Origin: Lentzea sp. NBRC 105346
Lineage (GTDB): Bacteria; Actinomycetota; Actinomycetes; Mycobacteriales; Pseudonocardiaceae
NCBI RefSeq assembly: GCF_030269605.1
Contig: NZ_BSTQ01000004.1
Location: 310,001 to 374,000 of the forward strand
Direction: 5' to 3'
DNA length: 64,000 nucleotides
Part shown: positions 14,430-40,034 of the stretch, piece by piece
Position numbering within the stretch: the stretch's first letter is position 1
How the letters are laid out: the number at the start of each line of letters is the position of its first letter
The notes under the pieces: model-generated
Told to the model about the DNA's origin: nothing
Database searches by the model: none
The model's input: the letters and a program-made list of their open reading frames with translations, nothing else
Program-made: the position numbers and the translations under genes

Positions 14430-14445
14430 GTCCGTTCTCCCTTCC

Positions 14446-14844: not shown

Positions 14845-14862
14845 GCCCCATTCTCGTCAGGT

Positions 14863-14882: not shown

Positions 14883-14890
14883 CGACGGGT

Positions 14891-18917: not shown

Positions 18918-19484
18918 ATGAACCAGCAAACGGCTCCCCAGGATCTTTCGTTCGTCCCCACCGTTGTGCCGCCCCCGGTTCTTCAGCCCTCACCCAGGCC
19001 CCGCCGGCGCTGGCCGTGGGTGGTGGCGGTGGCGGTGGCTCTGTTCACCGGGGTCGGGATCGGCGGCGCGGCAGAGAGCACGGAGAACATCGGTGTGGCG
19101 CAGCAGTCGGCCCCGGTGACCATGACCGTCACCGCCCCGGCGAAGACGATCACGCAGACTGTCACCGCCCCTGCGCAGACGATCACGCAGACCGCGACGG
19201 CGTCGAAACCGGCCGAAGCGCCCGTCGTCGCGGGCACGCGCACCGAGTTCGGGGCGGGCACCTACGAGGTCGGCACCGACATCAAGGCGGGCAAGTACAA
19301 GACGTCCGGACCGGACGGGTCGGGGTGGGTTCGGTCGTGCTACTGGGCGCGCAACAAGGACTCGTCGGGCTCGTTCGACGCGATCATCGCGAACGACAAC
19401 ATCGAAGGGCCGGGCACGTTGACCGTCAACAGCGGTGAGGTGCTCCAACTGTCGGGTTCGTGCGTCTGGAAGCTGGCGGGCTAG
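18918..19484 (+). CDS. Membrane-anchored extracellular beta-domain protein, unknown function
   Basis: 188 residues from ATG 18918 with GAAGGGA upstream. A cytoplasmic proline-rich N-terminus (~45 residues) leads to one helix (WVVAVAVALFTGVGIGG), a Thr-rich spacer with a direct repeat (TVTAPAKTITQ / TVTAPAQTITQ) and a C-terminal domain about 115-188 with GTYEVGTDIKAGKYKT, CYWAR, IIAND and a final SCVWK. That last pattern is common in secreted actinobacterial proteins and lipoproteins of unknown role, with two cysteines likely bonded. Its stop shares CTAG with the convergent giant gene. Confidence 0.72.
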   Translation: MNQQTAPQDLSFVPTVVPPPVLQPSPRPRRRWPWVVAVAVALFTGVGIGGAAESTENIGVAQQSAPVTMTVTAPAKTITQTVTAPAQTITQTATASKPAEAPVVAGTRTEFGAGTYEVGTDIKAGKYKTSGPDGSGWVRSCYWARNKDSSGSFDAIIANDNIEGPGTLTVNSGEVLQLSGSCVWKLAG

Positions 19485-22400: not shown

Positions 22401-25400
22401 GGCGGGGTGTACGTAGCGGTGACCGTGTTCGTCCGGCCGGTTGTGACGTTGGCTGTCGAGCAGTAGAAGACCTTCGACGCGCTCACGGCCAGGTCGAACG
22501 AGGTGACACACGTGGCCTCGGCCGGATCGTTCAACGTGATGGCGGTGAGGTCGACGTCGCCGGTGTTGGTGGCGGTGATCCGCCAGTACGCGGTGGTGCC
22601 GCTCGGGATGTTGGCGGTCTCCACCCAGGGACCGGTCGAGGCACAGTCCGCCGCGACGAGCGAGGAGCAGACTTCCTTTGCCAGCACCAGACCGAAGACG
22701 GTCGCGGTCGCGCTGTCCGGAGCGCTCACAACAGGTTCCGTACCCAGGGCAGCGCCTGGTGGCAGGTACTGCGCGGTCGCGGTGTTCGTCTTGTTCGTAG
22801 TGACGTTAGCGGTGGAGCAGTTGACCGTCTTGGACTCGTTCACGGCGAGGTCGAACGGCGCGACGACACACGATGCCTCACCGGGGTCGTTGAGGGTGAT
22901 GCCGGTGAGGTCGACTTCGCCGGTGTTGGTGACTGTGATCTGCCACTGCGCGGTCGAACCGGTGGGCAGGGTCGCGGTGTCGCTACAGCCGACGCCGGTG
23001 CAGATGTCCTTGACCACAGCCAGGTTCGTGACTTTGACGGTCGCGGAGTCAGGGACCGTGGTCACCTGGCTGCCGCCGGGCGGGGTGTAGGTCGCCGTGA
23101 CCGTGTTCGTCAGGCCTGCCGTCACCGTGGTGGTGGTGCAGTGGAACGTCTTCGTCGCACCGGCCGCGAGGTCGAACGAGGTGATGCACGAGGCCTCGGA
23201 CGGATCGTTCAAAGTGACGCCGGTGAGGTCGACATCGCCGGTGTTGGTGGCGGTGATCCGCCAGTACGCGGTGGAGCCGCTCGGGATGTTGGCGGTCTCC
23301 ACCCAGGGACCGGCCGAGGCACAGTCCGCCGCAATGAGCGAGGAGCAGACTTCCTTCGCCACCACGAGACCGAAGACGGTGGCGGTCGCGCTGTCCGGTG
23401 CGGTCACGATCGGCTCGGTGCCGGACGGAGCGCCTGGCGGCAGGTACTGCGCGGTCGCGGTGTTCGTCTTGTTCACGCTGAGGTTCGCGGTGGAGCAGTT
23501 GACCGTCTTGGACTCGTTCACGGCCAGGTCGAACGGCGCGACGACACACGATGCCTCACCGGGGTCGTTGAGCACGATGCCAGTGAGGTCGACTTCGCCA
23601 GTGTTGGTCACCGTGATCCGCCACTGCGCGGTCGAACCGGTCGGCAGGGTCGCGCTGTCGCTACAGCCGACGCCGGTGCAGATGTCCTTGACTACAGCCA
23701 GGTTCGTGACTTTGACGGTCGCGGAGTCAGGCGCCGTGCTCACCTGGCTGCCGCCGGGCGGGGTGTAGGTAGCGGTGACCGTGTTCGTCCGGCCGGTTGT
23801 GACGTTGGCCGTCGAGCAGTAGAAGACCTTCGACGCGCTCACGGCCAGGTCGAACGAGGTGACGCACGAGGCCTCGGCCGGATCGTTCAAAGTGACGCCG
23901 GTGAGGTTGACGTCACCGGTGTTGGTGGCGGTGATCCGCCAGTAAGCGGTGGAACCGCTGGGCAGGTTGGCCGTTTCCACCCACGGCCCCGAAGCGCATC
24001 CGGTCAGCGCCGAGCAGACCTCCTTGGCCAGGACGAGACCGTAGACGTTCACGGTCGCACCGTCCGGCGCCGTCACCACCGGGGCCGTGCCGGCCGGCGC
24101 ACCCGGCGGCACGTACTGCGCGGTCGCCGTGTTCGTCCTGTTCGCCGAGACGTTCGCGGTCGAGCAGTAGAACGTCTTGGTCGCACCCGCGGTCAGGTCG
24201 AACGACGCCACGGCACACGATGCCTCGGCCGCGTCGTTCAGCGCGATCGCGGTCAGGTCGGCTTCGCCGGTGTTGGCCACCGTGATCCGCCAGTAGACGG
24301 CCGACCCGGCCGAGGCGGTCAGGTTCTCCTGCCACGGACCGGTTCCGCCGGCGACGCAGTCGGCCGCGAGCGACGACCCGCACACCTCCTTGGCGACGGT
24401 CAGCCGGGACACCCGTACGCGCGCGTCATCGGGCGCGGTCACCACCTGGGACAAGCCCGGCGGGGTGTACTGCGCGGTGACGGTGTTCGTGCTGCCCGCG
24501 GCCACGTTCGCGGTCGAGCAGTAGAAGGACGCGGAAGCCCCGGCGGCCACGGAGAACGGCCCGGTGGCGCAGGCGGGGTGGGCCGCGTCGTTGATCGTGA
24601 TACCGGTGAGGTCGACGCTGCCGGTGTTGGTCACCGTGATCTTCCAACGGACCGTGGTGCCCGCCGGGATCGTCGCGAGCTCCACCCACGGCCCCGCCCC
24701 TCCCGCACCACAGTCCGCCGCGACGAGCGAGGAACAGACCTGCTTGGCGATCGTGAGCGCGTGCACGTCGGCGCGTGCGGTGTCCGGTGCGGTGTCGACG
24801 GGTGGTGAACCCGCCGGCGCGCTCAGCGGCACGAACCGGGCCGTCACGCTGTTCACCAGCGCCGTGGTGAGGTTCGGCGACGAGCAGTAGAAGGTGAGGG
24901 TCTGCCCGGCGAGCACGGTGAACGTCCCCGCCGCGGTCACGCAGGAGGGCGCCGCCGGGTCGTTCAGCGTCACCCCCGGAATGTCCACAGTGGTCGGATT
25001 GCTCACCTTGATCCGCCAGTACGCGGTGCTTCCCGACGGGATGAGGGTGTTCTCCGCCCACGGACCGGTGCCGCCGGAGCCGCAGTTCGCCGGTGTGGTG
25101 GAGGTGCACACCTCCTTCACCACGTTCAGCGTGGGCAGTGGAACGGAGAACGCCACCTGCTGGGCGAGGTAGGAGTCACCGGTGGTGTTGAGCTGCAGCG
25201 TGAGGCTGTTCGCCCCGACGGGCACCGTGCCCGCCGGCAGCACGAAGTCCTTGGCGTCGACCGAGAAGTTGTTGGGGGTGTTGGGATTCACCGGCCCCGC
25301 GGCGCTGTCGACGAAGAAGTTCCCCGAGCCGGTGCCGGTGGGTTCGGCGATCGGGGTTCCGTTGATGAGGAACTGGTCGCCGCTGATGCCCCAGTCACCC

Positions 25401-26296
25401 TCGTAGGCCGTGACGCCGGCGCGCAGCGGGCCGCCGGGGTACCGGAAGCCGCTGATCGGCACGGTAGTGGGAGGCTGCAGGCTGTCCTGACGGACGTGGC
25501 CGTCGTAGATGAAGATCTCGCGCGGCACCGGTGCGTAGGTCGGTTCGGGCTGCGGATACGTGTACACGAGGGTCAACGACCAGCCGCCGAAGCAGTTGTA
25601 TCCCTCTGGCGTCCAGACATTTCCCACCGTGACGGTGATCGGGGACCCCGTCGAGGCGCCGGAGAAGAGCGAGGTGATCTCGGCGGACGCGCTGTAGTAC
25701 TGGGCCTCCGTCAGCGCGGCTACCGGCTCGTTCACGAATGTCTGCGGAGCCACGGCGGTGGTCGTGCCGGTGCCCAGCCGGACGCTCACCGACTGGGTCT
25801 GGGGAGTTCCGGGAGGCGGGGTCGCGTACTCGCCGATCGACAGGCCGTTGCCGCTGCACAGCGGATAGACGAGTGTGCCGTCGGAGTCCGTGTAACGGCC
25901 GGTGTCGCCCGCCCAGTACAGGCGGACGTAGTCGATCGTCGCGCCGGGCGGGACGGTGACGCTCGCCGAGCTCGAGTCGAACGTCGCCGGGTTCGAGTCG
26001 ATGTCGGCCCACGCCATCGCGTACTCGTCGTTCACCGCGTCGGTGTCGATCCGGTTGGCGCCGTCCGAGCAGGGGACCGAGGTGAGCGGGGACGCCGTGG
26101 CCGGGCACTTCGTCACCGAGTTGCCGATGATGTTGAAGTCGCCGTAGACGACCTTGTCGTACACCTGGGTGAACGGGGTGACGATGCCGGCCGAGGCCGA
26201 GCCGGTCGTCACCGTCGCAGATCCGGCGACCAGGACGAGGATGACCAGCAGGCGCGTCACCGACCGGAGCACGCGGGAGCCTCGCCGTGCGGGCAT
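19481..26296 (-). CDS. Giant LAxTG-type cell-wall surface protein with 16 DUF11-like repeats
   Basis: 2271 residues. A signal peptide (about 1-36) is followed by an N-terminal adhesin-like domain of ~350 residues resembling DUF3344 (YGDFNIIGNS start, RLYWAGDTG, GYNCFGGWSL). Then come 16 tandem Ig-like repeats of about 111-127 residues (390-2228) of the DUF11/DUF7507 type. Most carry KEVC or KDIC, YWRITVTNTG, EASC and YCSTAN, so each has two likely disulfides. The C-terminus has LAVTG (2239-2243), a hydrophobic helix and RRRA, the substrate signal of class E sortase. GGAGG precedes ATG 26296. The protein would project far from the wall; the sortase is not in the window. Confidence 0.9.
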   Translation of the reverse strand: MPARRGSRVLRSVTRLLVILVLVAGSATVTTGSASAGIVTPFTQVYDKVVYGDFNIIGNSVTKCPATASPLTSVPCSDGANRIDTDAVNDEYAMAWADIDSNPATFDSSSASVTVPPGATIDYVRLYWAGDTGRYTDSDGTLVYPLCSGNGLSIGEYATPPPGTPQTQSVSVRLGTGTTTAVAPQTFVNEPVAALTEAQYYSASAEITSLFSGASTGSPITVTVGNVWTPEGYNCFGGWSLTLVYTYPQPEPTYAPVPREIFIYDGHVRQDSLQPPTTVPISGFRYPGGPLRAGVTAYEGDWGISGDQFLINGTPIAEPTGTGSGNFFVDSAAGPVNPNTPNNFSVDAKDFVLPAGTVPVGANSLTLQLNTTGDSYLAQQVAFSVPLPTLNVVKEVCTSTTPANCGSGGTGPWAENTLIPSGSTAYWRIKVSNPTTVDIPGVTLNDPAAPSCVTAAGTFTVLAGQTLTFYCSSPNLTTALVNSVTARFVPLSAPAGSPPVDTAPDTARADVHALTIAKQVCSSLVAADCGAGGAGPWVELATIPAGTTVRWKITVTNTGSVDLTGITINDAAHPACATGPFSVAAGASASFYCSTANVAAGSTNTVTAQYTPPGLSQVVTAPDDARVRVSRLTVAKEVCGSSLAADCVAGGTGPWQENLTASAGSAVYWRITVANTGEADLTAIALNDAAEASCAVASFDLTAGATKTFYCSTANVSANRTNTATAQYVPPGAPAGTAPVVTAPDGATVNVYGLVLAKEVCSALTGCASGPWVETANLPSGSTAYWRITATNTGDVNLTGVTLNDPAEASCVTSFDLAVSASKVFYCSTANVTTGRTNTVTATYTPPGGSQVSTAPDSATVKVTNLAVVKDICTGVGCSDSATLPTGSTAQWRITVTNTGEVDLTGIVLNDPGEASCVVAPFDLAVNESKTVNCSTANLSVNKTNTATAQYLPPGAPSGTEPIVTAPDSATATVFGLVVAKEVCSSLIAADCASAGPWVETANIPSGSTAYWRITATNTGDVDLTGVTLNDPSEASCITSFDLAAGATKTFHCTTTTVTAGLTNTVTATYTPPGGSQVTTVPDSATVKVTNLAVVKDICTGVGCSDTATLPTGSTAQWQITVTNTGEVDLTGITLNDPGEASCVVAPFDLAVNESKTVNCSTANVTTNKTNTATAQYLPPGAALGTEPVVSAPDSATATVFGLVLAKEVCSSLVAADCASTGPWVETANIPSGTTAYWRITATNTGDVDLTAITLNDPAEATCVTSFDLAVSASKVFYCSTANVTTGRTNTVTATYTPPGGTEVTTVPDSATVKVTNLTVAKDICTATDCGDTATLPTGSTAQWQITVTNTGEVDLTGITLNDAAEASCVAAPFDLAVNESKTVNCSTANLSVNKTNTVTAQYLPPGAPLDTEPVVSGPDSATATVFGLVLAKEACASATCGSWVETANIPSGSTAYWRITATNTGDVGLTGIVLNDAAEPGCATAAGSFDLIVGELKTFYCSTAGVTDSVTNTVTATFTPPGGALQTTAPDSATVKVTNLAVAKEVCTAVDCSGTTGPWAETANLPSGSTAQWRITVTNTGDVDLTGITLDDPAEASCVTSFDLAVDESKAFYCSTANVTTGRTNTVTAQYVPPGSGTPATTPPDSATVVVTNLAVDKEVCTDTDCGDGPWSDTASLMTGSTAYWRITVTNTGEIGLTGIALNDPVEASCAGASFDLAVNESKTVNCSTTNLTTNTTNSATAQYVPPGAPPSTEPVVTAPASATANVYGLELVKEVCASLSDTDCGPGGPGPWGLVANIPSGSSVHWRITATNTGDVDLTGVTLTDADEPSCDTVFDLAVGASASFYCSTDGVTGSVTNEVTATFGMMGWPDVTEDAEASVNVTDLQVQKEICSSLTAADCGTGPWVDTATLPKGATAHWRITVTNSGDVDLTGIVVNDPAEPSCVPAAFDLAKGASKVVYCSTANVTATKTNAVTAAYVPPGSPPSTPPIVTAPADATAKVSDLLVRKDICQSADCTTWGDDHVIQRGGTARWRITVTNTGEVDLTGIMLDDAVEPSCSTGGIDLAAGASTTFTCSTTNVTAGMTNTVTGQYVPPGAPATTPPLSTPPDDARVRVADLTVRKEVCLAGACDLWGELVTVHSGGTADWRITVVNTGEVDLGEVTVQDAIEPGCVTPAFALASGAEKTVYCATAGLTAGVVNTATATYSLPGEPPVVIPPDSASAEVAPTPIPPASAPLAVTGDDIWPLLAIGLLLVGAGVLLRVFARRRA
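22010..24034. repeat. Higher-order tandem repeat inside the giant surface gene (three ~675-bp units)
   Basis: Repeats 4-9 alternate between two types: an A form (KEVC start, ATYTPPGG end) and a B form (KDICT start, short, AQYLPPGA end). The pairs 4/5, 6/7 and 8/9 form three double units of about 675 bp that are much more alike than neighbouring single repeats. This shows recent duplication of a two-repeat block and a site prone to length change or assembly collapse. Confidence 0.75.
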
Positions 26297-26576
26297 GTGG
26301 TGCCTCCGGTCCCCGCCGACCCGGCGGTCGTGTGGACTCGTACCCAGGTACAGACCCGAAAACGATCAGCGGATGACGTGGCAATACCGCAAATGCGGGA
26401 TTCCCTATTGACGTCGACGCTCATTACGCGTGTTTTCGGGGGATTTTGTTCACGCGATGAGGTGGGATTCCTGCAATGGTGTGAGATCAAGACCGGAAGT
26501 AGCATTTCGAGTCAGACCGGCTGACCTGTGGCTGTCGTCAGTGGTCCTCGTGTAGAACGACAATGAGAGGCTTGCC
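26297..26576. promoter_or_regulatory. Divergent, relatively AT-rich promoter region of the surface cluster
   Basis: The 280 bases between the giant surface gene (minus) and the first WxL-like gene (plus). Bases around 26380-26470 are clearly richer in A/T than the neighbourhood (for example TTTTCGGGGGATTTTGTTC). GAGAGG before ATG 26577 serves as ribosome-binding site. Both directions of the accessory surface region could be set from here; I find no certain promoter hexamers. Confidence 0.4.
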
Positions 26577-27137
26577 ATGCAAATTGGTACCGGTTATAGG
26601 CTTCGAACCGCATTTGGTGCATTGGTCGCCGCGACGGCCATGGCAGTGCTCACCGCCGGTCCGGCCGGCGCCGCTGACACCACGACGACGTTCACCGTCA
26701 CCGGTGGCGCTCTGCTGATCACCGCACCGGCGACGGCGGACCTCGGCAGCGGTGGGCCGGGATCCCCGATCAGCTCGGCTCTCGGAGCCGTCACCGTCAC
26801 CGACGGGCGGGCCCTGCTCGCTCCCACCTGGGCGGCCACGGTCACCTCCGGCGACTTCACCACCGGTGGCGCGACGGCCGATGAGACGATCGCCAACACC
26901 CTCGTGGACTACTGGTCGGGACCCGCGACCGCGACGACCGGCTCCGGCACCACGTTCGCGCCCGGACAGGCCAACGCCGCCGCCGCAGTGCCGCTGAGCG
27001 AGACCCCGACGGCGTTCGCCCTCACCGCCGGTGTCGGCAACAACTCGGCGACCTGGAACCCGACGCTGGTCGTCAACGTCCCGGCACAGGCGGTCGGTGG
27101 CCTCTACACCGGAACGGTGACGCATTCGATGGCGTGA
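26577..27137 (+). CDS. Secreted WxL-like surface protein, type A
   Basis: 186 residues: signal peptide ending near AGPAGAA, then one beta-rich domain. The arrangement parallels the Firmicutes WxL domain: VTVTDGRALLAPTWAATV matches the VTDxRG-GW block, YWSGP and FAPGQAN lie in the middle, and TWNPTLVVNVP then YTGTVTHSMA end the domain where WxL proteins have the TWxL block. The true Trp-x-Leu pairs are absent. It is closest to 35865-36452 and to the C-terminus of the 28321 protein. It is followed by, and overlaps the likely start of, a WxL-interacting protein gene. Role inferred: non-covalent wall-bound component of a surface complex. Confidence 0.7.
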   Translation: MQIGTGYRLRTAFGALVAATAMAVLTAGPAGAADTTTTFTVTGGALLITAPATADLGSGGPGSPISSALGAVTVTDGRALLAPTWAATVTSGDFTTGGATADETIANTLVDYWSGPATATTGSGTTFAPGQANAAAAVPLSETPTAFALTAGVGNNSATWNPTLVVNVPAQAVGGLYTGTVTHSMA

Positions 27138-27165
27138 CCGGGCCGCTCGGCTGTTCGTAGTACTC

Positions 27166-28164
27166 GTGGTCGCCGCGCTCGTGCAGAGCGCGGCGACCAC
27201 AACATGTTGGTCTGCGACACCGGACGGGAAGCCCGGCGACTCAATCGGAATCAAGCTGCTCGATGCCCCTACGAACAGGCGGGACGACCCCAGGGCCAAG
27301 ACCTACATCATCGACTTCCTGCCGCCCAACTCCGTGATCCAGAGACGGGTGGAGGTATCGAACACCACGGACGAGACGAAGTCCTTCGATGTCTATGCGG
27401 CCGCGGCCGACATTCGGGACGCCAAGTTCGTCTTCGGCAACGCTCGCACGGCCAACGAGCTGTCCAGCTGGGTTTCGTTCGACCGCACCCACTTCGACCT
27501 GCCCGCCCACAGCACGACCACGGTGCTGGCGACGATCACGGTTCCCCTGCACGCGACAGGTGGAGAGCAGTACGCCGTGATCTGGGCGGAGGTCGCCGCG
27601 CCACCCGGCGCCTCGGGGAACATCGGCATGATCAACAGGGTCGGCGTTCGGATCTACCTCGACGTCGGCCCCGGTGGCGAGCCCAAGACGGACTTCGAGA
27701 TCGAGAGCATCACCCCGGCACGGACCGACGACGGGCGACCCGAGATCCGCGCGCAGGTGCACAACACCGGTGGGCGGGCGATCGACGTGAGCGGAACGCT
27801 GTCGCTGTCGGACGGGCCGGGAGCGTTGAGCGCGGGCCCGTTCAACCTGTCCGTCGGCACGACGATCGGGCCGGGAGGCAGGGCGGAGGTCAAGGTCCTG
27901 CTCGACAAGCGACTGCCGGTCGGCCCCTGGAAGGCGGAGCTGAGCCTGGCGAGTGGTCTCATCACCCGGACCGTGAACGCGGTGATCACCTTTCCCAGCT
28001 CGCCCGGTGTCGGCGAGACGGTCACAACGCAGTCGCCCTACCCCAAGCTGTTGCTGATCGGACTGGCGGGGCTCCTCGCGGTGGCGTGCACGGCATTGCT
28101 CTGGATCGGCATTCTCGCGTGGCGACGTCGCCGACGGGAACGCGAAGAGGCCAAGCAGTGGTAG
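27166..28164 (+). CDS. WxL-interacting-type membrane protein (DUF916/DUF3324 architecture)
   Basis: 332 residues from GTG 27166, the first standard start. The N-terminal domain (DDPRAKTYIIDFLPPNSV, SNTTDETKSFDVYA, ATGGEQYAVIWAEV) matches the peptidoglycan-binding DUF916 domain and the middle (HNTGGRAIDVSGTLSLSDGPG) the DUF3324 position. A C-terminal helix (LLLIGLAGLLAVACTALLW) and an Arg-rich tail anchor it. From GTG there is no signal peptide. The frame extends upstream to ATT 27124, giving RWRDRAARLFVVLVVAALV, a textbook signal sequence that overlaps the WxL-like gene by 14 bases. I think the real start is there. The paralogue at 34237 shows the same. Confidence 0.82.
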   Translation: MVAALVQSAATTTCWSATPDGKPGDSIGIKLLDAPTNRRDDPRAKTYIIDFLPPNSVIQRRVEVSNTTDETKSFDVYAAAADIRDAKFVFGNARTANELSSWVSFDRTHFDLPAHSTTTVLATITVPLHATGGEQYAVIWAEVAAPPGASGNIGMINRVGVRIYLDVGPGGEPKTDFEIESITPARTDDGRPEIRAQVHNTGGRAIDVSGTLSLSDGPGALSAGPFNLSVGTTIGPGGRAEVKVLLDKRLPVGPWKAELSLASGLITRTVNAVITFPSSPGVGETVTTQSPYPKLLLIGLAGLLAVACTALLWIGILAWRRRRREREEAKQW

Positions 28165-28320
28165 TCATTTTTGATTATGGCGAAACCGTGAAGATCACTC
28201 CTTTTGGTGGTTGGCCGGATAGGTCAATGCACAGGGGGATGGGGAACTAAATAATCCCTCTGGTTGTGCGAGCGGAGAGCGGTCGGCAACGGCTCGCGCG
28301 TCGTTTCCTGACGAGTTGGG
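28165..28320 (+). promoter_or_regulatory. AT-rich leader with stem-loop before the LamG protein gene
   Basis: Bases 28165-28260 are unusually A/T-rich. GCACA-GGGGGAT (28229-28240) can pair with ATCCCTC (28254-28260) and TGTGC (28265-28269), leaving a 13-base loop and a small bulge. It does not match any riboswitch consensus I know. It may be a terminator of the gene before or a leader structure. Confidence 0.3.
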
Positions 28321-31300
28321 GTGGTGGCGTTGCAGCGGCGGGTTTTGGCCAGGCTGGTGGTCGCGGTCTTGCTGGTGACTTGCATGCCTCTCGTCTTTCC
28401 CGGCATGTCCGCGGCGGCCACCCCACTCGTGATCACGAGCGCGGACCACGCTCGGTTCTCGGTGGGGCGGTCGGACGCCTTCACGTTCACCGCGACCCGT
28501 TCGCTGTCACCAGAGCTCACCGCGGCCGGCGCGTTGCCCGACGGCGTCGAGTTCACCGACAACGGCGACGGAACGGCAACGCTGTCCGGAACGCCCAGGA
28601 CCGAGGGCACGTACCCCCTGACCATCAACGCCGAGGACCCCACCGGTCGAACCACCGAGCAGCGGTTCCTCCTGGCCGTCGGGGAGGGCTGGTACAACGC
28701 GAGCTGGACGCGGCGCAAGCCGATCACGATCAGCCGCACCATGGTGTCCGGGACGGTGACCAACTTCCCCGTGACGATCCGGAGGTCCTCCGACTCCGAC
28801 CTGGCCGCCAGGGCGCAGGCGGACGCCGACGACATCCTGTTCACCGACTCGGACGGGGTCACCAAGCTCAACCACCAGATCCAGTCGTACACGTCGGCGA
28901 CCGGGGTGCTGTGGGCCTGGGTTCAGGTGCCGTCGTTGACCGACACTGCCGACCACACGCTCTACATGTACTACGGCAACGCCTCGGCGACCAGCCAGCA
29001 GAACGCCACCGCGGTGTGGGACTCGAACCACAAGTCCGTCTGGCACCTGTCCGAGGCCGTCAGCGCGACCGCGGGCAACTTCAAGGACTCCACCAGCAAC
29101 GCCAACCACGCGTCGTACCAGGGCTCGACCGGCATGACCACGGACGCCGAAGGCGGCGTCGTCCTCGACGGCGTCAACGACTACCTGTCGACCACGACCC
29201 AGCAGACCAACCCGCAGGTCTTCACCATCGAGGCATGGGTGAAAACCAGTACCGCGTCGGGTAAACCGATCTTCAACTTCGAGTCGACGCAGACCGGTAC
29301 CGCGGCAACGCTCTTCGACCGGAACCTGAACATCGGCACCGACGGCAAGGCCTACTTCGCCCTGTGGGACGGCACCGCCGGTCACGTGGCCTCCGGCGGC
29401 ACCAACCTGGCCACCGGCGTCTGGCACTTCCTCGTCGCCACGTACGACACCACCGGTGACGCCATGAACCTTTACGTGGACGGCAACCTGGTCGGCACCA
29501 GCACCAGCACCCAGGCCGAGACCAACAACGGGTGGTGGCGCCTGGGCAGCTACCACGTGTCCGACAACACCGCCGGCGTCGACGGATACTTTCCAGGCAC
29601 CATCTCCGAACCCCGTGTCTCCAACGTCGTCCGCAACGCCAACTGGGTGACCACCAACTTCCGCACCCAGAACAACCCCTGGGCGTACACGACGTTCGGC
29701 ACGGAGCAGTCCCTCTCCGCACCGGCGATCACGAGTGCGACCAGCACCAGCTTCGCCGACGGCGCGGCGGGCACCTTCACCATCACCACGACCGGTGGCC
29801 CGACACCGGTCATCACCAAGACCGGCACGTTGCCCGCCGGAGTGACCTTTGTGGACAACGGCGACGGAACGGCCACCCTGTCCGGAACAACCACCAGCGT
29901 CGGCGCGTACCCGCTGACCATCACCGCCAGCAACGGGGTCGCGCCCAATGCCACGCAGAACTTCACCCTGAACGTCGTGCCGTCCTGGTACAACGCGAGC
30001 TGGCTCTACCGCAAGGCGATCACGATCGACCACACGAAGGTGCCTGCCAACACGACCACCTTCGCGGTACTTATCAGCAGGACTGACTCCGATCTCGCCG
30101 CACACGCCCAGTCCGATGCCGACGACATCCTGTTCACCGACACGGACATGATCACCAAGCTCCCGCACGAGATCGAGTCCTACACCTCGGCGTCCGGAAT
30201 CCTGGTCGCCTGGGTGCAGGTGCCGTCCCTGTCCAGCACGGTCGACAAGACGATCTACATGTACTACGGCAACGCCTCGGCGGCCAACCAGCAGAACGTC
30301 AGCGGCACGTGGCGCTCGGAGTACAAGGGCGTCTGGCACCTGTCGCAGAGCCCGACCGCCACCGCGCCGCAGTTCAAGGACTCGACCAGCAACGCGAACC
30401 ACGGCACCAACCAGGGCTCCATGCCCGCGGGCTCCCAGGTGGCCGGCAAGATCAACGGCAGCATCACCCTCGACGGCAGCAACGACTACATCTCGACCGC
30501 CGTCCAGCAGACCAACCCGCAGTCGTTCACGATCGAGGTATGGGTGAAAACCACCTCCCTCCTCGGTAAGCCCATCGTCAACTTCGAGGACATCCAGACC
30601 GGCAGTACCGCCACCAACAACTACGACCGCGTCATCTACATCGGCACCGACGGCAAACCCCGGTTCGTCCTGTGGGACGGCAACGCGGATACCGCGGTGG
30701 GGCCTACCAGCATCGCGGACAACCAGTGGCACTACCTCGTGGCCACCTACACCGGCACCACGATGAACTTCTACGTGGACGGCGTGGCCGTCACGCCGGT
30801 CACCAGTAACAACGCCCAGGTGTACAACGGCTACTGGCGCTTCGGCAGCTACCACGTGGCCCCCTACACCGCCAGCGCCGACGGGTACTTCGCCGGCAGC
30901 ATCGACGAGGTCCGGGTGTCCACCGGGGCCTGGTCGGCGACGGCCATCACCGCCAGGTACAACAACCAGAGCTCGCCGTCCACGTTCGTCTCGGTCGCGG
31001 GCGAGGTGGCGTACAGCGTCGCACCGACGATCACGAGCGCGAACAGCACCTCCTTCGGTGCGACGCTGCCGAGCACCTTCACCATCACGACGACCGGCGC
31101 ACCGACACCGACGATCAGCATGACCGGCACGCTGCCCAGCGGTGTGTCCTTTGTGGACAACGGCAACGGTACGGCCACCCTGTCCGGCACGCCCGTGTCG
31201 ACCTCCATCGGCACGTACCCGCTGAGCTTCACCGCCGCCAACGGGGTCAGTCCCAACGCCACGCAGTCGTTCACCCTCACCGTCGTACAGGGGTGGTACA

Positions 31301-33027
31301 ACTCCAGCTGGCGGTATCGCAAGGCGATCACGATCGACCGCACCAAGGTCGGCGCGACCCTGACCAACTTCCCGTTCCTGGTCAGCAGAACCGACTCCGA
31401 TCTCGCCGCGGACGCCCAGTCCGACGGTGACGACATCCTGTTCACCAGCTCGGACGGCACCACCAAGCTCAACCACCAGATCGAGTCCTTCACCTCGGGC
31501 ACCGGTGTGCTCGTGAGCTGGGTCAACGTGCCAACGGTGTCCAACACCACGGACACGATCATCTACATGTACTACGGCAACGCCTCGGCGGCCAACCAGC
31601 AGAACGCCACCGCGGTCTGGGACTCCGGCTACGACGCCGTCTGGCACCTCTCCGAGGGGCCCACGAGCACGGCCCCGCAGTTCCAGGACTCCACCAGCAA
31701 CACCAACCACGGCACCGCGCAGGGCCCGATGGCCGCGGGCGCGCAGGTGTCGGGCAAGGTCGACGGTTCGCTGACGCTGGACGGCACCGACGACAACGTC
31801 ACCACGACGAACCTGCTGACGAACCCGCAGAACTTCATGGAGAGCGTCTGGTTCAGGACGACCTCGACGGCGGGCAAGAAGGTGCTGGGCTTCGAGCAGG
31901 TGCAGAGCGGAACGGGCTCGGGCAGCTACGACCGGCACATCTACGTCGGCACCGACAGCAAGGTGTACTTCGGCGTGAACGACGGCGCGGGCAACAACAT
32001 CACCGTCAACACCGCGGGCACGTACACCGATGGGAACTGGCACCAGGCCGTCGGATATCGCGACGACACCAACGACATCATCGGCCTGTACGTGGACGGA
32101 ACTCTGCAGGCGACCTCGGTCAGCACGCAGGCGCAGCCCTACAACGGTTATGTGCGCATGGGTTCCTACCGGTCGCTCGGCCCGAACTGGCCGTCGGCGG
32201 GCGGTCACGGTTACTTCGCGGGCAGCATCGACGAGGTCCGGTGGGGCAGCACCGTGCGCAGCTCGTCGTACGTCAGCACCCAGTACAACAACCAGAGCTC
32301 GCCGTCGACCTTCTTCGCGACGGGCAGCGAGGTGGTCTACACGGCCGCGCCCGCGATCACGAGCGCGAACAGCACGACCTTCACCGCGGGCTCGGCGGGC
32401 ACCTTCACGGTCACCACGACCGGCGTGCCGACACCGGCCATCAGCAAGACCGGCACGTTGCCCACCGGTGTGACCTTTGTGGACAACGGGGACGGCACGG
32501 CGACGCTGTCGGGAACGCCGACGCTCGCGGGCACCTACCCGCTGACGATCACCGCCAGCAGTTCGACCACTCCCAACGCAACCCAGTCCTTCACCCTCAC
32601 CGTCGCCGGAGGCTCGCTGACGATCAGCCTGCCCGGCACGGCGAACCTGGGCAGCGGCCTGATCGGCAACACGGTCAGCGGTGCGCTCGGTTCGACCCAG
32701 GTCATCGACAACCGAGGCGTCGCAAGCGCATCGTGGACCGCCTCGGTGTCCTCCACCACCTTCACCAGTGGCGGCCGGACGGTTCCGCTCGCGAACCTGA
32801 AGTACTGGTCCGGGCCGTCCACCTCGACCACCGGCAGCGGCACCTTCACCCCGGGACAGAGCAACTCCGGGGCCGCGCAGGACATGACCACATCCCGCAC
32901 CGGCTTCACGCAGGCCGGTAGCAACGGCATCAACCAGGCCACCTGGAACCCGACATTCATGGCCACCGTGCCGATAACGGTCATCCCCGGCTCCTATAGC
33001 GGAACCGTCACGCACTCCGTCGTTTAG
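28321..33027 (+). CDS. Giant secreted adhesin-like protein: three Ig/DUF2341/LamG modules and a WxL-like C-terminus
   Basis: 1568 residues. Signal peptide about 1-36 (ARLVVAVLLVTCMPLVF). Three modules of ~430 residues follow, each a putative-Ig strand set (TFVDNGDGTATLSGT), a DUF2341 domain (WYNASWLYRKAITI to LYMYYGNAS) and a concanavalin/LamG domain (VFTIEAWVKT, WHFLVATYD, MNLYVDG). A fourth Ig leads to a C-terminal type A WxL-like domain (about 1430-1568: NRGVASASWTASV, YWSGP, TWNPTFM, YSGTVTHSVV). DUF2341 and LamG domains bind or process glycans in other proteins. The C-terminus suggests it is held at the wall by the adjacent WxL-interacting proteins. GTG 28321 or 28324 starts it after GGGG. 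Confidence 0.85.
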   Translation: MVALQRRVLARLVVAVLLVTCMPLVFPGMSAAATPLVITSADHARFSVGRSDAFTFTATRSLSPELTAAGALPDGVEFTDNGDGTATLSGTPRTEGTYPLTINAEDPTGRTTEQRFLLAVGEGWYNASWTRRKPITISRTMVSGTVTNFPVTIRRSSDSDLAARAQADADDILFTDSDGVTKLNHQIQSYTSATGVLWAWVQVPSLTDTADHTLYMYYGNASATSQQNATAVWDSNHKSVWHLSEAVSATAGNFKDSTSNANHASYQGSTGMTTDAEGGVVLDGVNDYLSTTTQQTNPQVFTIEAWVKTSTASGKPIFNFESTQTGTAATLFDRNLNIGTDGKAYFALWDGTAGHVASGGTNLATGVWHFLVATYDTTGDAMNLYVDGNLVGTSTSTQAETNNGWWRLGSYHVSDNTAGVDGYFPGTISEPRVSNVVRNANWVTTNFRTQNNPWAYTTFGTEQSLSAPAITSATSTSFADGAAGTFTITTTGGPTPVITKTGTLPAGVTFVDNGDGTATLSGTTTSVGAYPLTITASNGVAPNATQNFTLNVVPSWYNASWLYRKAITIDHTKVPANTTTFAVLISRTDSDLAAHAQSDADDILFTDTDMITKLPHEIESYTSASGILVAWVQVPSLSSTVDKTIYMYYGNASAANQQNVSGTWRSEYKGVWHLSQSPTATAPQFKDSTSNANHGTNQGSMPAGSQVAGKINGSITLDGSNDYISTAVQQTNPQSFTIEVWVKTTSLLGKPIVNFEDIQTGSTATNNYDRVIYIGTDGKPRFVLWDGNADTAVGPTSIADNQWHYLVATYTGTTMNFYVDGVAVTPVTSNNAQVYNGYWRFGSYHVAPYTASADGYFAGSIDEVRVSTGAWSATAITARYNNQSSPSTFVSVAGEVAYSVAPTITSANSTSFGATLPSTFTITTTGAPTPTISMTGTLPSGVSFVDNGNGTATLSGTPVSTSIGTYPLSFTAANGVSPNATQSFTLTVVQGWYNSSWRYRKAITIDRTKVGATLTNFPFLVSRTDSDLAADAQSDGDDILFTSSDGTTKLNHQIESFTSGTGVLVSWVNVPTVSNTTDTIIYMYYGNASAANQQNATAVWDSGYDAVWHLSEGPTSTAPQFQDSTSNTNHGTAQGPMAAGAQVSGKVDGSLTLDGTDDNVTTTNLLTNPQNFMESVWFRTTSTAGKKVLGFEQVQSGTGSGSYDRHIYVGTDSKVYFGVNDGAGNNITVNTAGTYTDGNWHQAVGYRDDTNDIIGLYVDGTLQATSVSTQAQPYNGYVRMGSYRSLGPNWPSAGGHGYFAGSIDEVRWGSTVRSSSYVSTQYNNQSSPSTFFATGSEVVYTAAPAITSANSTTFTAGSAGTFTVTTTGVPTPAISKTGTLPTGVTFVDNGDGTATLSGTPTLAGTYPLTITASSSTTPNATQSFTLTVAGGSLTISLPGTANLGSGLIGNTVSGALGSTQVIDNRGVASASWTASVSSTTFTSGGRTVPLANLKYWSGPSTSTTGSGTFTPGQSNSGAAQDMTTSRTGFTQAGSNGINQATWNPTFMATVPITVIPGSYSGTVTHSVV

Positions 33028-33071
33028 AAACCGGCCTCAGACTTCGAACGAACCAACGCTAGGAGCGTGTT

Positions 33072-33617
33072 GTGTTTGGCATACGTAGTGGATCGCTGAT
33101 GGTGGGCGTCGCCGCCGTCGCGGTCGGCACCGCCGTTCCGGCGAACGCGGTGGACTCCACCGTGACGTTCTCGACCACGGGCGGCACGCTTTCGGTGGCG
33201 GTGCCCGCTTCGGCGACGCTGACCGGTGGCACCACGGTTCCCGGTGGGACGGTGACCGGCGCGATGGGAACCGTGACCGTGACCGACACGCGCGGCAACG
33301 CCACCGGGTGGACGGCCAGCGTGTATTCGACGACGGGGTTCACCTCCGCTGGAAGTACCGCGATCGCCAACAGTGGCATCACTTACACGCCGGGGTCGAC
33401 GACGAGCACGACCGCTCCGGGCAGCCCGACCATCACGGCGGGAACGGCTGGGTCTCCCGGTGCGAACGCCGGGGCGGCGCTGACGGCGTACACGTACGCC
33501 AACGCGACGGCCGGAGGTAACACGGTCGCGTGGAACCCGAGCCTCGCGGTCGTCATTCCCCTTACCGCACAAGGAGGTGCGACCTACTCCGGGACCGTCA
33601 GTCACCAGGTGGCGTGA
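33072..33617 (+). CDS. Secreted WxL-like surface protein, type B copy 1
   Basis: 181 residues from GTG 33072 (AGGAG at 33061-33065). Signal peptide ends VPANA. The single domain has VTVTDTRGNATGWTASVYST, the closest match in the window to the WxL block VTDxRGxxxGW. It also has TYANATAGGNTVAWNPSL and ends YSGTVSHQVA. The next gene encodes a protein of the same length with most residues identical, so the pair arose by tandem duplication. Type B proteins have a longer Gly/Thr/Ser middle than type A and lack YWSGP. Confidence 0.7.
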   Translation: MFGIRSGSLMVGVAAVAVGTAVPANAVDSTVTFSTTGGTLSVAVPASATLTGGTTVPGGTVTGAMGTVTVTDTRGNATGWTASVYSTTGFTSAGSTAIANSGITYTPGSTTSTTAPGSPTITAGTAGSPGANAGAALTAYTYANATAGGNTVAWNPSLAVVIPLTAQGGATYSGTVSHQVA

Positions 33618-33653
33618 CTGCTTCTCAGCTCAACTTCGAGGATTGGGGATGTC

Positions 33654-34199
33654 GTGAGTACCAAGCGCATTGGCTTTCTTGTCGTGGGTGTCGCGGCCAT
33701 CGCCGTCGGCGCCGCCGTCCCGGCGAACGCGGTGGACTCCACCGTCACGTTCACCGCGAGTGCCGGCACACTTTCCGTGGCGGTGCCCGCTTCGGCGACG
33801 TTGAGCGGTGGCAGCACGGTTCCCGGCGGGACGGTGACCGGCGCGCTGGGAACCGTGACCGTGACGGACACGCGGGGTAGTGCCGCCGGTTGGACGGCGA
33901 GTGTGTACTCGACGACGGGGTTCACCGCCACCGCGAGCACCGCGATCACCAACAGCGGCGTCACTTATACGCCCGGAGCGACCACGAGCACGAACACTCC
34001 GGGCAGCCCGACCATCACTGCGGGAACGGCCGGCTCGCCGGGCGCCAGCGCCGGGGCCGCGCTGACGGCGTACACGTACGCCAACGCGACGGCCGGAGGT
34101 AACACGGTCGCCTGGAACCCGACCATCGCCGTCGTCATTCCCGTCACCGCGAAGTCGGGTGCGGCCTACTCCGGGACGGTGAGCCATCAAGTGGCGTGA
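33654..34199 (+). CDS. Secreted WxL-like surface protein, type B copy 2
   Basis: 181 residues from GTG 33654 after GATTGGGGAT. It differs from copy 1 mainly in the signal peptide and at scattered positions (TDTRGSAAGWTASV; AWNPTIAVVIP; YSGTVSHQVA), with no length change. Its last codons overlap the probable true start (ATC 34186) of the WxL-interacting protein gene that follows, the same arrangement as at 27124-27137. Predicted to be exported and wall-associated. Confidence 0.7.
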   Translation: MSTKRIGFLVVGVAAIAVGAAVPANAVDSTVTFTASAGTLSVAVPASATLSGGSTVPGGTVTGALGTVTVTDTRGSAAGWTASVYSTTGFTATASTAITNSGVTYTPGATTSTNTPGSPTITAGTAGSPGASAGAALTAYTYANATAGGNTVAWNPTIAVVIPVTAKSGAAYSGTVSHQVA

Positions 34200-34236
34200 C
34201 CAGGCCGCTGTCCTGCTCACCTGCCTGTTCGTCCTC

Positions 34237-35232
34237 GTGAACTCGGGGACCGGCGCGCCGGCGGAGGAGGACAACGCCAAGAACAGCATCGGCATCCGGC
34301 TGCTCGAGATGCCGGTCAACCGTGCCGACGACCCCCGCGCGCAGGTCTACATCGTGGACCACCTCGCGCCGGGTGCCGTCATCAAACGGCATGTGCTGGT
34401 CACGAACAGTTCCCCGGCGCCGCAACACATCGAGGTCTTCCCCGGTGCGGCCGGCATCGACGACGACGCGTTCAACGCGCTGGCCGGACGCGCCACCAGC
34501 GAGCTGACCAGCTGGATCTCCCTCGATCGCACCGCCGTGGACCTGCCGCCGGGAGGCAGCGAGAAGGTACTGGTGACGATCGCGGTCGACCCCATCGCGT
34601 CGACCGGCGAGCGCTACGGCGTCATCTGGGCGGAGACCAGCGCTCCGTCCAACACGCCGGACAACGTCCTGATGGTCACCAGGGTCGGCGTCCGGATCTA
34701 CCTCGACGTCGGGCCGGGCGGTGAGCCGCCGCCGAGTTTCGACGTCGGCAGCCTCACCCCGTCGCGCGACGGCGACCGCAGGCCCGCGGTGGTGGCCAGC
34801 GTGCACAACACCGGCGGTCGTGCGTTGGACATGGTGGGCGAGCTCTCGTTGTCCGACGGCCCTGGTGGGGTGAGCGCGGGCCCGTTCCCGGTCTCGACCG
34901 CGGTCACGTTGCTGCCGGGCCGCACCGCGGGCGTGCGCACGGTGCTCGACCAGCACCTGCCGGACGGGCCGTGGAAAGCGCGGCTGACGTTGCGCAGCGG
35001 CTTCATCGAAAAAGTGGTGACGGCCACGATCACCTTTCCGGCCTCCGCCAACACGGTGGGTGGACCGGTCCGGCCCGAGAACTGGTTCGAGAGACACCCT
35101 TTGCTGTCGGCTGGTCTCGGGATGCTGGTCGGGGCCGCGTTGGTCGGAACGTTCTTCGCGCGCCGGTGGCTGGTCTCACGCCGGCGAACGCGCGATGAGG
35201 AGTCTCCACAAGGGAGTCTCATCGAGGTGTGA
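34237..35232 (+). CDS. WxL-interacting-type membrane protein, second copy
   Basis: 331 residues from GTG 34237. DUF916-like N-domain (DDPRAQVYIVDHLAPGAV, LVTNSSPAPQHIEVFPGA, STGERYGVIWAE), DUF3324-like middle (HNTGGRALDMVGELSLSDG) and a C-terminal membrane helix (LLSAGLGMLVGAALVGTFF) with RRWLVSRRRTR. As in the first copy, GTG gives no signal peptide, while the open frame back to ATC 34186 yields KWRDQAAVLLTCLFVLVNSG. A stop codon immediately precedes ATC, so no standard start exists between it and GTG. The protein should be an outward-facing anchor holding the neighbouring WxL-like proteins. Confidence 0.82.
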   Translation: MNSGTGAPAEEDNAKNSIGIRLLEMPVNRADDPRAQVYIVDHLAPGAVIKRHVLVTNSSPAPQHIEVFPGAAGIDDDAFNALAGRATSELTSWISLDRTAVDLPPGGSEKVLVTIAVDPIASTGERYGVIWAETSAPSNTPDNVLMVTRVGVRIYLDVGPGGEPPPSFDVGSLTPSRDGDRRPAVVASVHNTGGRALDMVGELSLSDGPGGVSAGPFPVSTAVTLLPGRTAGVRTVLDQHLPDGPWKARLTLRSGFIEKVVTATITFPASANTVGGPVRPENWFERHPLLSAGLGMLVGAALVGTFFARRWLVSRRRTRDEESPQGSLIEV

Positions 35233-35287
35233 CCGGTCCCCATCGGCAAGTGTTCGATTGTTGAGCGTGGCTCGGAGAGGGGCTCAT

Positions 35288-35833
35288 GTGTTCGGCAACC
35301 GCATCGGAACAGTCCTCACGGCCGCAGCCGCGGTCGTGATCTTCGCTGTCACTCCGGCGAACGCCGCGGACAGCACCGTCACGTTCGCGACGACCGGCGG
35401 CGTGCTGTCCGTCTCGGTGGCCCCGGCGGCCGCGCTCAACACCGGCAGCGCCACGCCGGGCACGACCATCAGCGGCCTGCTCGGAGCGGTGACCGTGACC
35501 GACGCGCGCGGCACCGCCGAGGGATGGGCCATCGGCGTGTACTCGACCACGGGGTTCACCGCCACCGGGAGTCCGTCCATTCCGAACACCGGCATCACGT
35601 ACACGCCGGGTGCGGCCACCGGAACGGTCGCACCGGGAACCCCGGCCATCACCCCTGGCGCCGCTGGATCGCCGGGCAACGACCGCGGCTCCGCCCGGAC
35701 CGTCTACACCTACGCCAACGCCACGGCGGGCGGCAACCGGGTCTCCTGGGTCCCGACCCTCGCGGTCGCGATCCCCAGCACCGCCCGTCCGGGCGCCCTC
35801 TACAGCGGGAAGATCACTTACCGGGTGATGTGA
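35288..35833 (+). CDS. Secreted WxL-like surface protein, type B copy 3
   Basis: 181 residues from GTG 35288, giving VFGNRIGTVLTAAAAVV like the MFGIRSG start of copy 1; an out-of-frame ATG overlaps it. GAGAGGGG lies 5-12 bases upstream. Same length as copies 1 and 2 but more diverged (TDARGTAEGWAIGVYST; SWVPTLAVAIP; final YSGKITYRVM). The terminal THSV/SHQV motif is ITYRV here. It lies after the second WxL-interacting gene, suggesting the module has been extended at its 3' side. Confidence 0.7.
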   Translation: MFGNRIGTVLTAAAAVVIFAVTPANAADSTVTFATTGGVLSVSVAPAAALNTGSATPGTTISGLLGAVTVTDARGTAEGWAIGVYSTTGFTATGSPSIPNTGITYTPGAATGTVAPGTPAITPGAAGSPGNDRGSARTVYTYANATAGGNRVSWVPTLAVAIPSTARPGALYSGKITYRVM

Positions 35834-35864
35834 AACGTTCAGCCCCAATGCCAATGGAGACTTC

Positions 35865-36452
35865 ATGCTTGCGGGACGCGTCAGAATGGTCGTGGCCGGT
35901 GTCGCCGTGCTCGTTTTCGCCGTCGTGGCCCCGGCGTACGCGGAGGATCCGGACGACGTCGACACGACCGTGACGTTCATGGTGAACTCGGGGACGGAGA
36001 CGACCTTCGAGGTCCTGAGCGGCCCGCTGTCCGTCTCGGCACCGGAGTCCGTGGCGCTCGGGGATTCGGGCCCGTCGTCGTCGATCACCTCGACCCTCGG
36101 CACCGTCACCGTCACCGACATGCGCGCCCTGATGAATCCGACCTGGACCGCCGAGGTGTCGTCCACCGACTTCACCACCGGTAGCGGGACGGCCGGTGAG
36201 ACCATTCCCGCCGAGGACGTGGCCTACTGGTCCGGCCCGCAGACCTCGTTCTCGGGCATGAACACGATCACCGCGCCAGGACAGTTGAACCAGTCCAACC
36301 GGGTCCCGATTCACGAGCGGAAGCCGGCCTTCGCGCTCACCTCCGGCAGGGGCAACAACTCGGTGAGCTGGAACCCGACCCTCGTCATCACGATCCCGGA
36401 CGCCGCGGTCGCCGGTGAGTACACCGGAACGGTGACGCACTCGGCAGCCTGA
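35865..36452 (+). CDS. Secreted WxL-like surface protein, type A
   Basis: 195 residues with signal peptide ending APAYA. An acidic N-terminus (EDPDDVD) precedes the domain: VTVTDMRALMNPTWTAEVSS, VAYWSGPQTSF, TAPGQLNQSN, SWNPTLVITIP and final YTGTVTHSAA. It pairs with 26577-27137 as the type A form, and the two bracket the cluster. It converges on the tachylectin-like gene with six bases between the stops, so no terminator separates them. Confidence 0.7.
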   Translation: MLAGRVRMVVAGVAVLVFAVVAPAYAEDPDDVDTTVTFMVNSGTETTFEVLSGPLSVSAPESVALGDSGPSSSITSTLGTVTVTDMRALMNPTWTAEVSSTDFTTGSGTAGETIPAEDVAYWSGPQTSFSGMNTITAPGQLNQSNRVPIHERKPAFALTSGRGNNSVSWNPTLVITIPDAAVAGEYTGTVTHSAA

Positions 36453-36458: not shown

Positions 36459-37328
36459 TCAGTTCTTCCTGACCGCGTTCAACCGCGTGACGACGGCACC
36501 ACCGTCTCGCGGACCGAACGAGGTACACGCCGTGGCCCAGTCGAAGCGGCTGCAGGCGTTGGACTGCGCGACAACGTCCTGCTCGTTGTTCCAGCCGGTG
36601 CCGATGACGTTGCCAGCGGTGGACGCCCACTTCTTCGTCACCGGGTTGTAGCTGTGCCAGAGCAGGTTGCCGGTCGAGGAGTCCACCGCGTAGAACACCT
36701 CGCCGCCGGGCGAGCTGATGTTCTTCAGGTTCTGCCAGCCCGTGGTGACCTGTGCGACCGGTCGCACCCAGGTCGGGTTCGTACCGGACCAGAAGTCGAT
36801 GTGGTAGCGGAACATCGCACCGGCCGTCGTGCGCATGTACACGACTCCCTTGCTGGTGGCGACGATCGCGTTGTACTGCGTCAGCCCGGTGTCCAGCAAC
36901 GCGCCCTGCACCGCCCACTGGTTCTTGGCGAAGTTGTAGTAGTGCGCTTTGAGGTTTCCGCTGGTGTCCAAGGTGTACAGAACGCCGTCCTCGTCGACGG
37001 AGATCCGGTTCCGGGTGTTCGCCGCGGTGTAGGACCAACCCTGGCCGAGCACCTTGTACTCGCCGCCGCCGGGAAAGCCGTCCCAGCGGGTTCCGTTGTA
37101 GTGCAACAGTCTCAGCTCACCGCCGGTGGTGATGCCGAACATCCACCCGCTCGGACCGGCGAGCACGCGGCCCAGCCAGCCGCCACCGATCTGGTAGCTC
37201 TCGCCCCATGTGAACGCGCCGTTGGTCGGCGCCTCGTGCTCGAACAGGTACAGGTCGCCCGCGGCGTCGCACGGGTAGACCGGAGCGAGACCGTAGCGGG
37301 CCGTCAACGTGGTGCTTGGTCCTGCCAT
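36459..37328 (-). CDS. Tachylectin-like beta-propeller protein
   Basis: 289 residues forming about five to six repeats of the tachylectin-2 kind (LYLFEHEAP, LRLLHYNGTRWDG, LKAHYYNFAKNQW, MFRYHIDFWSG, LLWHSYNPVTKKW). Such propellers bind N-acetylglucosamine-type sugars. There is no signal peptide, which is odd for a lectin; the protein may stay inside or leave by a non-Sec route. GGAGAGAG precedes ATG 37328. It is the last gene of a three-gene operon, 12 bases after the ceramidase-like gene. Confidence 0.8.
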   Translation of the reverse strand: MAGPSTTLTARYGLAPVYPCDAAGDLYLFEHEAPTNGAFTWGESYQIGGGWLGRVLAGPSGWMFGITTGGELRLLHYNGTRWDGFPGGGEYKVLGQGWSYTAANTRNRISVDEDGVLYTLDTSGNLKAHYYNFAKNQWAVQGALLDTGLTQYNAIVATSKGVVYMRTTAGAMFRYHIDFWSGTNPTWVRPVAQVTTGWQNLKNISSPGGEVFYAVDSSTGNLLWHSYNPVTKKWASTAGNVIGTGWNNEQDVVAQSNACSRFDWATACTSFGPRDGGAVVTRLNAVRKN

Positions 37329-39768: not shown

Positions 39769-40034
39769 GCCAGGCCCCTCTCGTCTCACTCGACTGGCTG
39801 AAGGAGCGACCGGAGAGGGCGGCTCTTTATCACTAGGAGTGACCAAATGGCAGTTCGTTATGCAGCTGTGACCCTCGTTGGCGCGAGGCACTTGGTGCGG
39901 CTCTCTTGACCTGGTCACACAGAGTGCCCACCTGGCTGCATTGCGAAGTTTCTTCAGGTTTTCCTCAGTCGGGCACTGACGCGACCGCAATTCACGTCAG
40001 GAACAGGTCGTCCGCTGGGTGCTTGGAGGGTCGG
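39769..40034. promoter_or_regulatory. Divergent intergenic region between propeller operon and RHS toxin gene
   Basis: 266 bases, A/T-rich for this genome. It contains the dyads TCACT-AGG-AGTGA (39830-39842) and TCAGT-CGGGC-ACTGA (39965-39979). The first overlaps GATAAAG read on the minus strand, a possible -10 for the operon. GGAGGG lies before ATG 40035 of the RHS gene. Confidence 0.35.

Follow-up and report, generated by a model that had tools for sequence, protein, structure and literature searches.

Do high-GC Gram-positive bacteria have their own version of the WxL cell-surface complexes, which are known mainly from Firmicutes and have been interpreted as devices that are bound to the wall, bind the host or serve virulence (PMC9772566, PMC10599100)? 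The question is raised by a cluster of eight genes, all on the forward strand, in a 64,000-nucleotide stretch of Lentzea sp. NBRC 105346 (contig NZ_BSTQ01000004.1, positions 310,001 to 374,000; hereafter the window, in whose coordinates all positions are given). The cluster encodes five small secreted proteins (A1, A2 and B1 to B3), two membrane anchors and one giant surface protein, and the genes and their order are as an initial annotation, made from the sequence alone, had described them (Table 1). That annotation took the cluster for the equivalent of a WxL system. Sequence profiles and the fold of the anchor support this proposal and indicate that the system is homologous rather than merely equivalent: the WxL complexes of gut bacteria have a diverged relative in the Lentzea locus, which likely encodes a cell-surface complex of the WxL/WxL-interacting protein (WxLIP), or csc, type.

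Six WxL-type domains in one locus

Searched against the 9.39-Mb genome, a profile built from the six related domains has exactly six hits at E ≤ 1 (best 8.0e-74), namely the five small proteins of 181-195 residues and the C-terminus of the giant, as first annotated. The domains can be aligned over their whole length, with 25 invariant columns, and A1 is 39-53% identical to the other five. Two sequence blocks named in the initial annotation are generally present but vary between copies: the D-x-R-G block reads R-A in A1 and A2 and VIDNRG in the giant, and the Y[TS]GTVTHSV-like end is replaced in B3 by a terminal YSGKITYRVM. The N-terminal part of A2 (within window 35865-36010) contains a 15-residue insertion, by eye an apparent duplicate of the motif of the N-terminal strand (TTVTFMVNSG, TETTFEVLSG).

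The Pfam WxL model, PF13731 (cut-off 25 bits), recognizes three of the six domains: B1, B2 and B3 pass it (26.0, 27.3 and 26.4 bits), A1 and A2 have no match, and none is listed for the giant in a whole-protein scan. In a larger set of 42 domains, from the window and other actinobacterial genomes, 20 match this model at E ≤ 0.1. A 42-row profile that holds no Firmicutes sequence was then searched against 10,110 open reading frames (ORFs). The Firmicutes sample consisted of the WxL loci of five plasmids, taken from 36 plasmid records found with an actinobacterial WxL protein (L084). Seven ORFs in the five Firmicutes loci were matched at 2.6e-14 to 4.2e-5, with at least one per locus; the large WxL ORF of a Terribacillus plasmid was not among the seven. 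The small Terribacillus protein is aligned nearly end to end, with Y-x-G-T-V-T lying over Y-K-S-T-L-T and H opposite W. An unrelated fold for the small proteins, the outcome that the initial annotation had set against its own proposal, is not what emerged: profile comparison puts them in the WxL superfamily. On this profile evidence, the small proteins and the tail of the giant share a WxL-superfamily domain, and we regard its homology to the Firmicutes WxL domains as real. A small-protein profile retrieved only two glycoside-hydrolase sequences from the PDB (E 0.054 and 0.056), and for the eight cluster proteins NCBIfam returned nothing above threshold, only sub-threshold matches. The structural-neighbour list for a small protein lacked the WxL chain of 9i25, an absence that does not speak for a different fold.

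The Lentzea and Firmicutes systems (PF13731; CscB small, CscC large) agree in having small, domain-only secreted proteins together with a large protein that ends in the same domain, in D-x-R-(G) ahead of the first Trp, in a profile match that runs end to end and, for the plasmid loci, in a gene order of one or more WxL genes followed by DUF916 on one strand. They differ in the motifs. A dual Trp-x-Leu motif is the published WxL signature (PMC5817068, PMC9772566), the second motif reads Y-x-x-x-(L/I/V)-T-W-x-L-x-x-x-P (PMC5817068), and a conserved Asp and Arg sit at W-8 and W-6 (PMC9772566). The Lentzea domains read W-T-A, W-A-A or W-A-I at the first motif position and H-x-V/M/A or Y-R-V at the second, where the Firmicutes Y-x-x-x-T-W-x-L-x-x-x-P corresponds to Y-x-x-x-T-H-x-V and the protein ends. 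B1-B3 keep the Asp and Arg, which in the other three domains are displaced by one position. A conserved W-N-P-T-L strand is also present; it was considered as the second WxL motif and dropped, as the profile alignment sets that motif at the C-terminal T-H-x-V. Because the domains are homologous, yet both motifs are lost in all six, we call them WxL-type rather than WxL proteins. WxL domains much nearer the Pfam model (E down to 1.9e-14) occur in other Actinomycetota (L069-L072, L083 and L084), and some of these loci contain frames that look DUF916-like by eye.

The anchors and the WxLIP fold

The two anchors had been annotated as DUF916/DUF3324-type membrane proteins. They missed the Pfam thresholds for these families, and their WxLIP-like class is assigned from fold and iterated profiles instead. 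In its predicted structure, anchor 1 has the WxLIP fold, with two immunoglobulin (Ig)-like domains followed by a C-terminal membrane helix (306-345), and its best match among all PDB chains is the WxLIP of Enterococcus faecium; anchor 2, at 47% identity, probably has the same architecture. A PDB sequence search with the anchor profile likewise retrieved only the E. faecium WxLIP, at E 0.47 and 0.51, which alone proves nothing. The anchors share with WxLIP proteins (DUF916-DUF3324-transmembrane; PF06030, PF11797; PDB 9i25, 9i1y) a signal peptide, two Ig-like domains and a C-terminal transmembrane helix. They differ in falling below the Pfam cut-off, in blocks of their own (YIVDHLxPG, GERYxVIWAE, VGPGGEP and NTGGRALD) and in an apparent ATT or ATC start that overlaps the WxL-type gene. 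The predicted anchor structure also matches the PapD-like chaperone fold, and the anchors thus resemble the chaperones with which Gram-negative bacteria assemble hair-like fibres.

A two-gene pair recurs across actinomycetes

How widespread is this arrangement? When named genomes were scanned using nothing but the anchor alignment, 315 relatives came up, of which the best 80, representing 78 distinct loci, were kept. These best 80 include Lentzea, Actinokineospora, Micromonospora, Kitasatospora, Streptomyces, Streptosporangium, Nonomuraea, Thermobifida fusca, Rhodococcus, Cryobacterium, Modestobacter and others; the system is not special to Pseudonocardiales. Each of the 82 anchor ORFs at the 78 loci is preceded, on its own strand, by a WxL-type ORF, with at most 458 bases between the domain ends. 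In the reverse direction, 18 of 20 loci chosen by the WxL-type profile contain an anchor match at E ≤ 0.01, and one of the two exceptions (L056) stops at a contig end. Exactly one WxL-type and one anchor ORF are present in 50 of the 78 loci, and the basic unit of the actinobacterial loci therefore appears to be a two-gene WxL-anchor pair. For the same reason the two modules (A-anchor-giant and B-B-anchor-B-A) of the initial annotation, which fit the gene order in the window, are better read as two WxL-anchor pairs plus the giant plus duplicates.

At E ≤ 1e-10, anchor-type matches occur in 103 of 394 genomes drawn from the class, often to a type that is more distant. Within the genus, 4 of 24 genomes are matched by the WxL-type profile and 8 of 24 by the anchor profile, four of the latter being weak, distant types; and in a draw from the phylum, with up to 8 candidates scored per genome, the WxL-type profile matches at least 26 of 396 genomes. 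Since the diverged form adjoins its anchor in all 82 near-type anchors examined, in free-living actinomycetes, host virulence alone is unlikely to be the basic function.

Putative near-cognate start codons embedded in the upstream gene

In both window anchors the reading frame opens inside the upstream gene, 17 bases from its end counting the stop. Neither anchor has an ATG, GTG or TTG ahead of the signal peptide's hydrophobic core. Each frame has ATT (27124) or ATC (34186) as its second codon, from which a classic signal peptide reads on, and we consider it plausible from the sequence that these are the starts. They would overlap the last 14 bases of A1 and of B2, respectively, stop included. 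In anchor 1, a CTG at 27151 lies behind the charged region, immediately before the hydrophobic core; CTG was left out of the start-codon counts.

In 55 distinct anchors, 53 of named loci and two of the window, the frame begins 14-25 bases ahead of the upstream end. Nineteen of them have an ATG, GTG or TTG before the core, whereas the other 36 have none but have ATT or ATC as second codon; 13 of these 36 have no ATG, GTG or TTG anywhere before the mature domain, and 34 of the 36 have a net positive n-region. The ATT or ATC arises from CAT, a His codon in the WxL-type gene. This codon is used in 36 of 37 overlapping cases without a nearby canonical start, compared with 7 of 26 WxL-type genes that no anchor follows, 5 of the 21 cases that have a canonical start and 1 of 7 cases lacking overlap (Fisher, 1.8e-9 against no-anchor genes and 3.8e-9 against canonical-start genes, p-values that are too small, as the species are related). 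Counted by genus or metagenome-assembled genome (MAG) label, the direction is the same, with CAT only in 15 of 16 compared with 3 of 14 in each of the same two controls. For starts of the TTG type it is a Val codon, GTT, that makes the start, and GTT is present in 19 of 32 canonical-start cases and 1 of 26 genes without an anchor. An excess of the Val codon GTG before the motif (34/34 ATT/ATC cases versus 4/11) was not used, being circular: the overlap criterion requires a TGA made by GTG-A.

Putative ATT or ATC starts embedded in this way occur in 11 named genera. We also considered whether the anchor is instead a +1 frameshift fusion to the WxL-type protein. The overlap of the frames fits this, as does the C that follows the upstream TGA stop in the window, but the stops differ among loci (TGA, TAG and TAA), no common slippery site is apparent by eye, 19 overlapping anchors own a usable ATG, GTG or TTG, and a fusion would place a charged, signal-peptide-like segment within an exported protein; we judge it highly improbable. 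Near-cognate starts have precedents, also in an actinomycete: infC (ATT; ATC in Streptomyces) and sigR (GTC) have non-canonical starts under IF3 control (PMC5472188). As proposed for the anchors, sigR belongs to a two-gene coupled unit; the putative anchor starts differ in lying inside the 3' end of the upstream gene. No prior description of an embedded ATT/ATC anchor start was found in the titles and abstract openings that literature searches listed. If true, these starts would form a sizeable conserved near-cognate set that is missed by ATG/GTG/TTG-only rules. We read the arrangement as translational coupling from a weak start, by which the anchor would be less abundant than its client.

A proposed surface complex and its giant

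We propose that each anchor would be made by translational coupling from the WxL-type gene ahead of it, and that both products would be exported by Sec. The membrane-held anchor would then capture the WxL-type domain by beta-strand insertion and retain it at the cell wall, and the LamG giant would be displayed outward via its own C-terminal WxL-type domain. The giant contains three Laminin_G_3, three DUF2341 and four He_PIG stretches. Its LamG-type (ConA-like) domains suggest, by analogy, that it binds polysaccharide or glycoprotein, and adhesion to plant, fungal or soil material is for this reason the likely use. In Lactobacillus plantarum, large WxL proteins are lectin-like (PMC1534035), which likewise suggests adhesion. 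Eight large WxL-tailed proteins of other actinomycetes were scanned: five have named domains (Ice_binding in L142, L143 and L150, RCC1 with fn3 in L147 and FG-GAP in L125), and the other three gave no family. As these domains differ, the cargo varies while the docking domain stays.

Weighing the alternatives

Several results count against a WxL/WxLIP-type complex. No Trp-x-Leu motif occurs in any of the six domains, at either position, and the Firmicutes loci are a favourable sample, picked because an actinobacterial WxL protein retrieved them. For PF06030, anchor 1 reaches only E 0.021 (15.3 bits against a cut-off of 27.3) and anchor 2 has no match; DUF3324 is matched by neither. The un-iterated anchor profile matches none of the five Firmicutes DUF916 proteins, and after one round only two are matched (2.3e-4 and 0.0059). 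When profiles are compared directly the signal is weak, with an hhalign probability of 6.8% and an E of 0.0053, as against 0.59 for an unrelated pair. Four genomes of the genus (G008, G010, G016 and G023) have a distant anchor type (6.9e-16 to 1.2e-13) and no WxL-type profile match, so that the pairing is shown for the near type only. The ligand and purpose of the giant are a guess from domain names.

Could the pair instead assemble a fibre? Each WxL-type domain would be an incomplete beta-sandwich that receives a strand from the anchor, acting as a PapD-like chaperone held in the membrane. N-terminal strands would link the small proteins one to the next in a thin fibre, and the giant, with no such strand free on its WxL-type domain, would cap the tip like FimH. 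With the predicted anchor fold matching that of pilus chaperones, this reading would provide a concrete, testable mechanism for WxL and WxLIP travelling together. The pilin entries gave low TM-scores in the fold comparison, which counts against it, and we hold this reading to be possible but unlikely. In contrast to the chaperones and subunits of chaperone-usher systems (PapD/FimC/Caf1M; FimA/FimG), the Lentzea anchor is membrane-bound; no usher was seen among the cluster genes, with no usher model searched. Lentzea is a bacterium without a classic outer membrane. More speculative, and doubtful on present evidence, is a general form of this idea, in which WxL/WxLIP would be the single-membrane counterpart of chaperone-pilin assembly across Firmicutes and Actinomycetota: WxLIP would be a tethered chaperone of the PapD kind, whose synthesis in many actinomycetes would begin by near-cognate (AUU/AUC) re-initiation within the gene of its client, small WxL proteins would chain by donor-strand exchange, and large ones such as the LamG giant would cap the fibre as adhesins. 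Alternatively, the pair might be a non-adhesive, wall-sensing or structural module, a peptidoglycan-bound protein with a membrane tether, to which the giant is a Lentzea-only add-on. The 50 loci with a single pair fit such a module, as does the lack of a partner family recurring beside the pair in a neighbour survey of the best 26 clusters, where the commonest neighbours were antisense frames of the anchor and Micromonospora synteny. The survey flanks, however, span at most 9 kb and often end at contig ends, and large WxL-tailed proteins may be encoded elsewhere; the giant lies inside the cluster in the window and in three Lentzea relatives, and large WxL-tailed proteins with named domains are present at five further loci. 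We therefore think a non-adhesive module rather improbable, and retain the WxL/WxLIP-type surface complex as the preferred reading.

Gene layout and neighbourhood

Signal peptides and gene starts were assigned by eye. For B3, a start in a longer frame from 35060 was dropped in favour of the GTG at 35288.

Table 1. Features of the WxL-type locus (window coordinates)
Feature	Position	Strand	Description	Basis
A1	26577..27137	+	Small secreted WxL-type protein, 186 residues; signal peptide, then one domain	Profile, alignment; no Pfam match alone
Anchor 1 (WxLIP-like)	27124..28164	+	Signal peptide, two Ig-like domains, C-terminal transmembrane helix, arginine-rich end	Inferred ATT start
Giant surface protein	28321..33027	+	1568 residues; signal peptide, He_PIG/DUF2341/Laminin_G_3 repeats, C-terminal WxL-type domain	ORF, Pfam
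WxL-type domain of the giant	32578..33027	+	About residues 1420-1568 (~150); overlaps end of last He_PIG	Pfam, alignment, profile
B1	33072..33617	+	Small secreted WxL-type protein, 181 residues	PF13731 1.1e-5, 26.0 bits
B2	33654..34199	+	Small secreted WxL-type protein, 181 residues	PF13731 4.4e-6, 27.3 bits; model pLDDT 85.2
Anchor 2 (WxLIP-like)	34186..35232	+	47% identical to anchor 1	Inferred ATC start
B3	35288..35833	+	Small secreted WxL-type protein, 181 residues	GTG start; PF13731 8.1e-6, 26.4 bits (longer frame scanned)
A2	35865..36452	+	Small secreted WxL-type protein, 195 residues; apparently doubled N-terminal strand	Alignment, profile; no Pfam match

In Lentzea indica and L. alba the gene order is A-anchor-giant-B-B-anchor, the closing B-A pair being extra in the window; in L. 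terrae the contig stops inside the first B gene. In all three relatives the WxL block lies directly beside the homologue of a ketoacyl synthase/GGDEF-EAL region (window 12342-17552) and is inverted relative to that region, about 9-14 kb from its place in the window (12335-12342 and 26384-35246). The comparison suggests that the position of the block relative to the GGDEF/EAL gene differs in these relatives, and the block seems to move as a unit among Lentzea genomes; the subtilase flank is one of many paralogues.

Divergent from the block, on the reverse strand (19481-26296), is a gene for a 2271-residue repeat protein with 16 DUF7617 stretches and DUF11. It ends in an LAVTG-type sorting signal (read by eye), a transmembrane segment and RRR, and it may be an LPxTG-type partner as seen in csc clusters. 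Immediately downstream of the block and convergent with it is a gene for a Tachylectin-type beta-propeller protein (36459-37328, reverse strand), and farther on lies one for a 2264-residue RHS-repeat protein with DUF6531 (39906-46700, forward strand).

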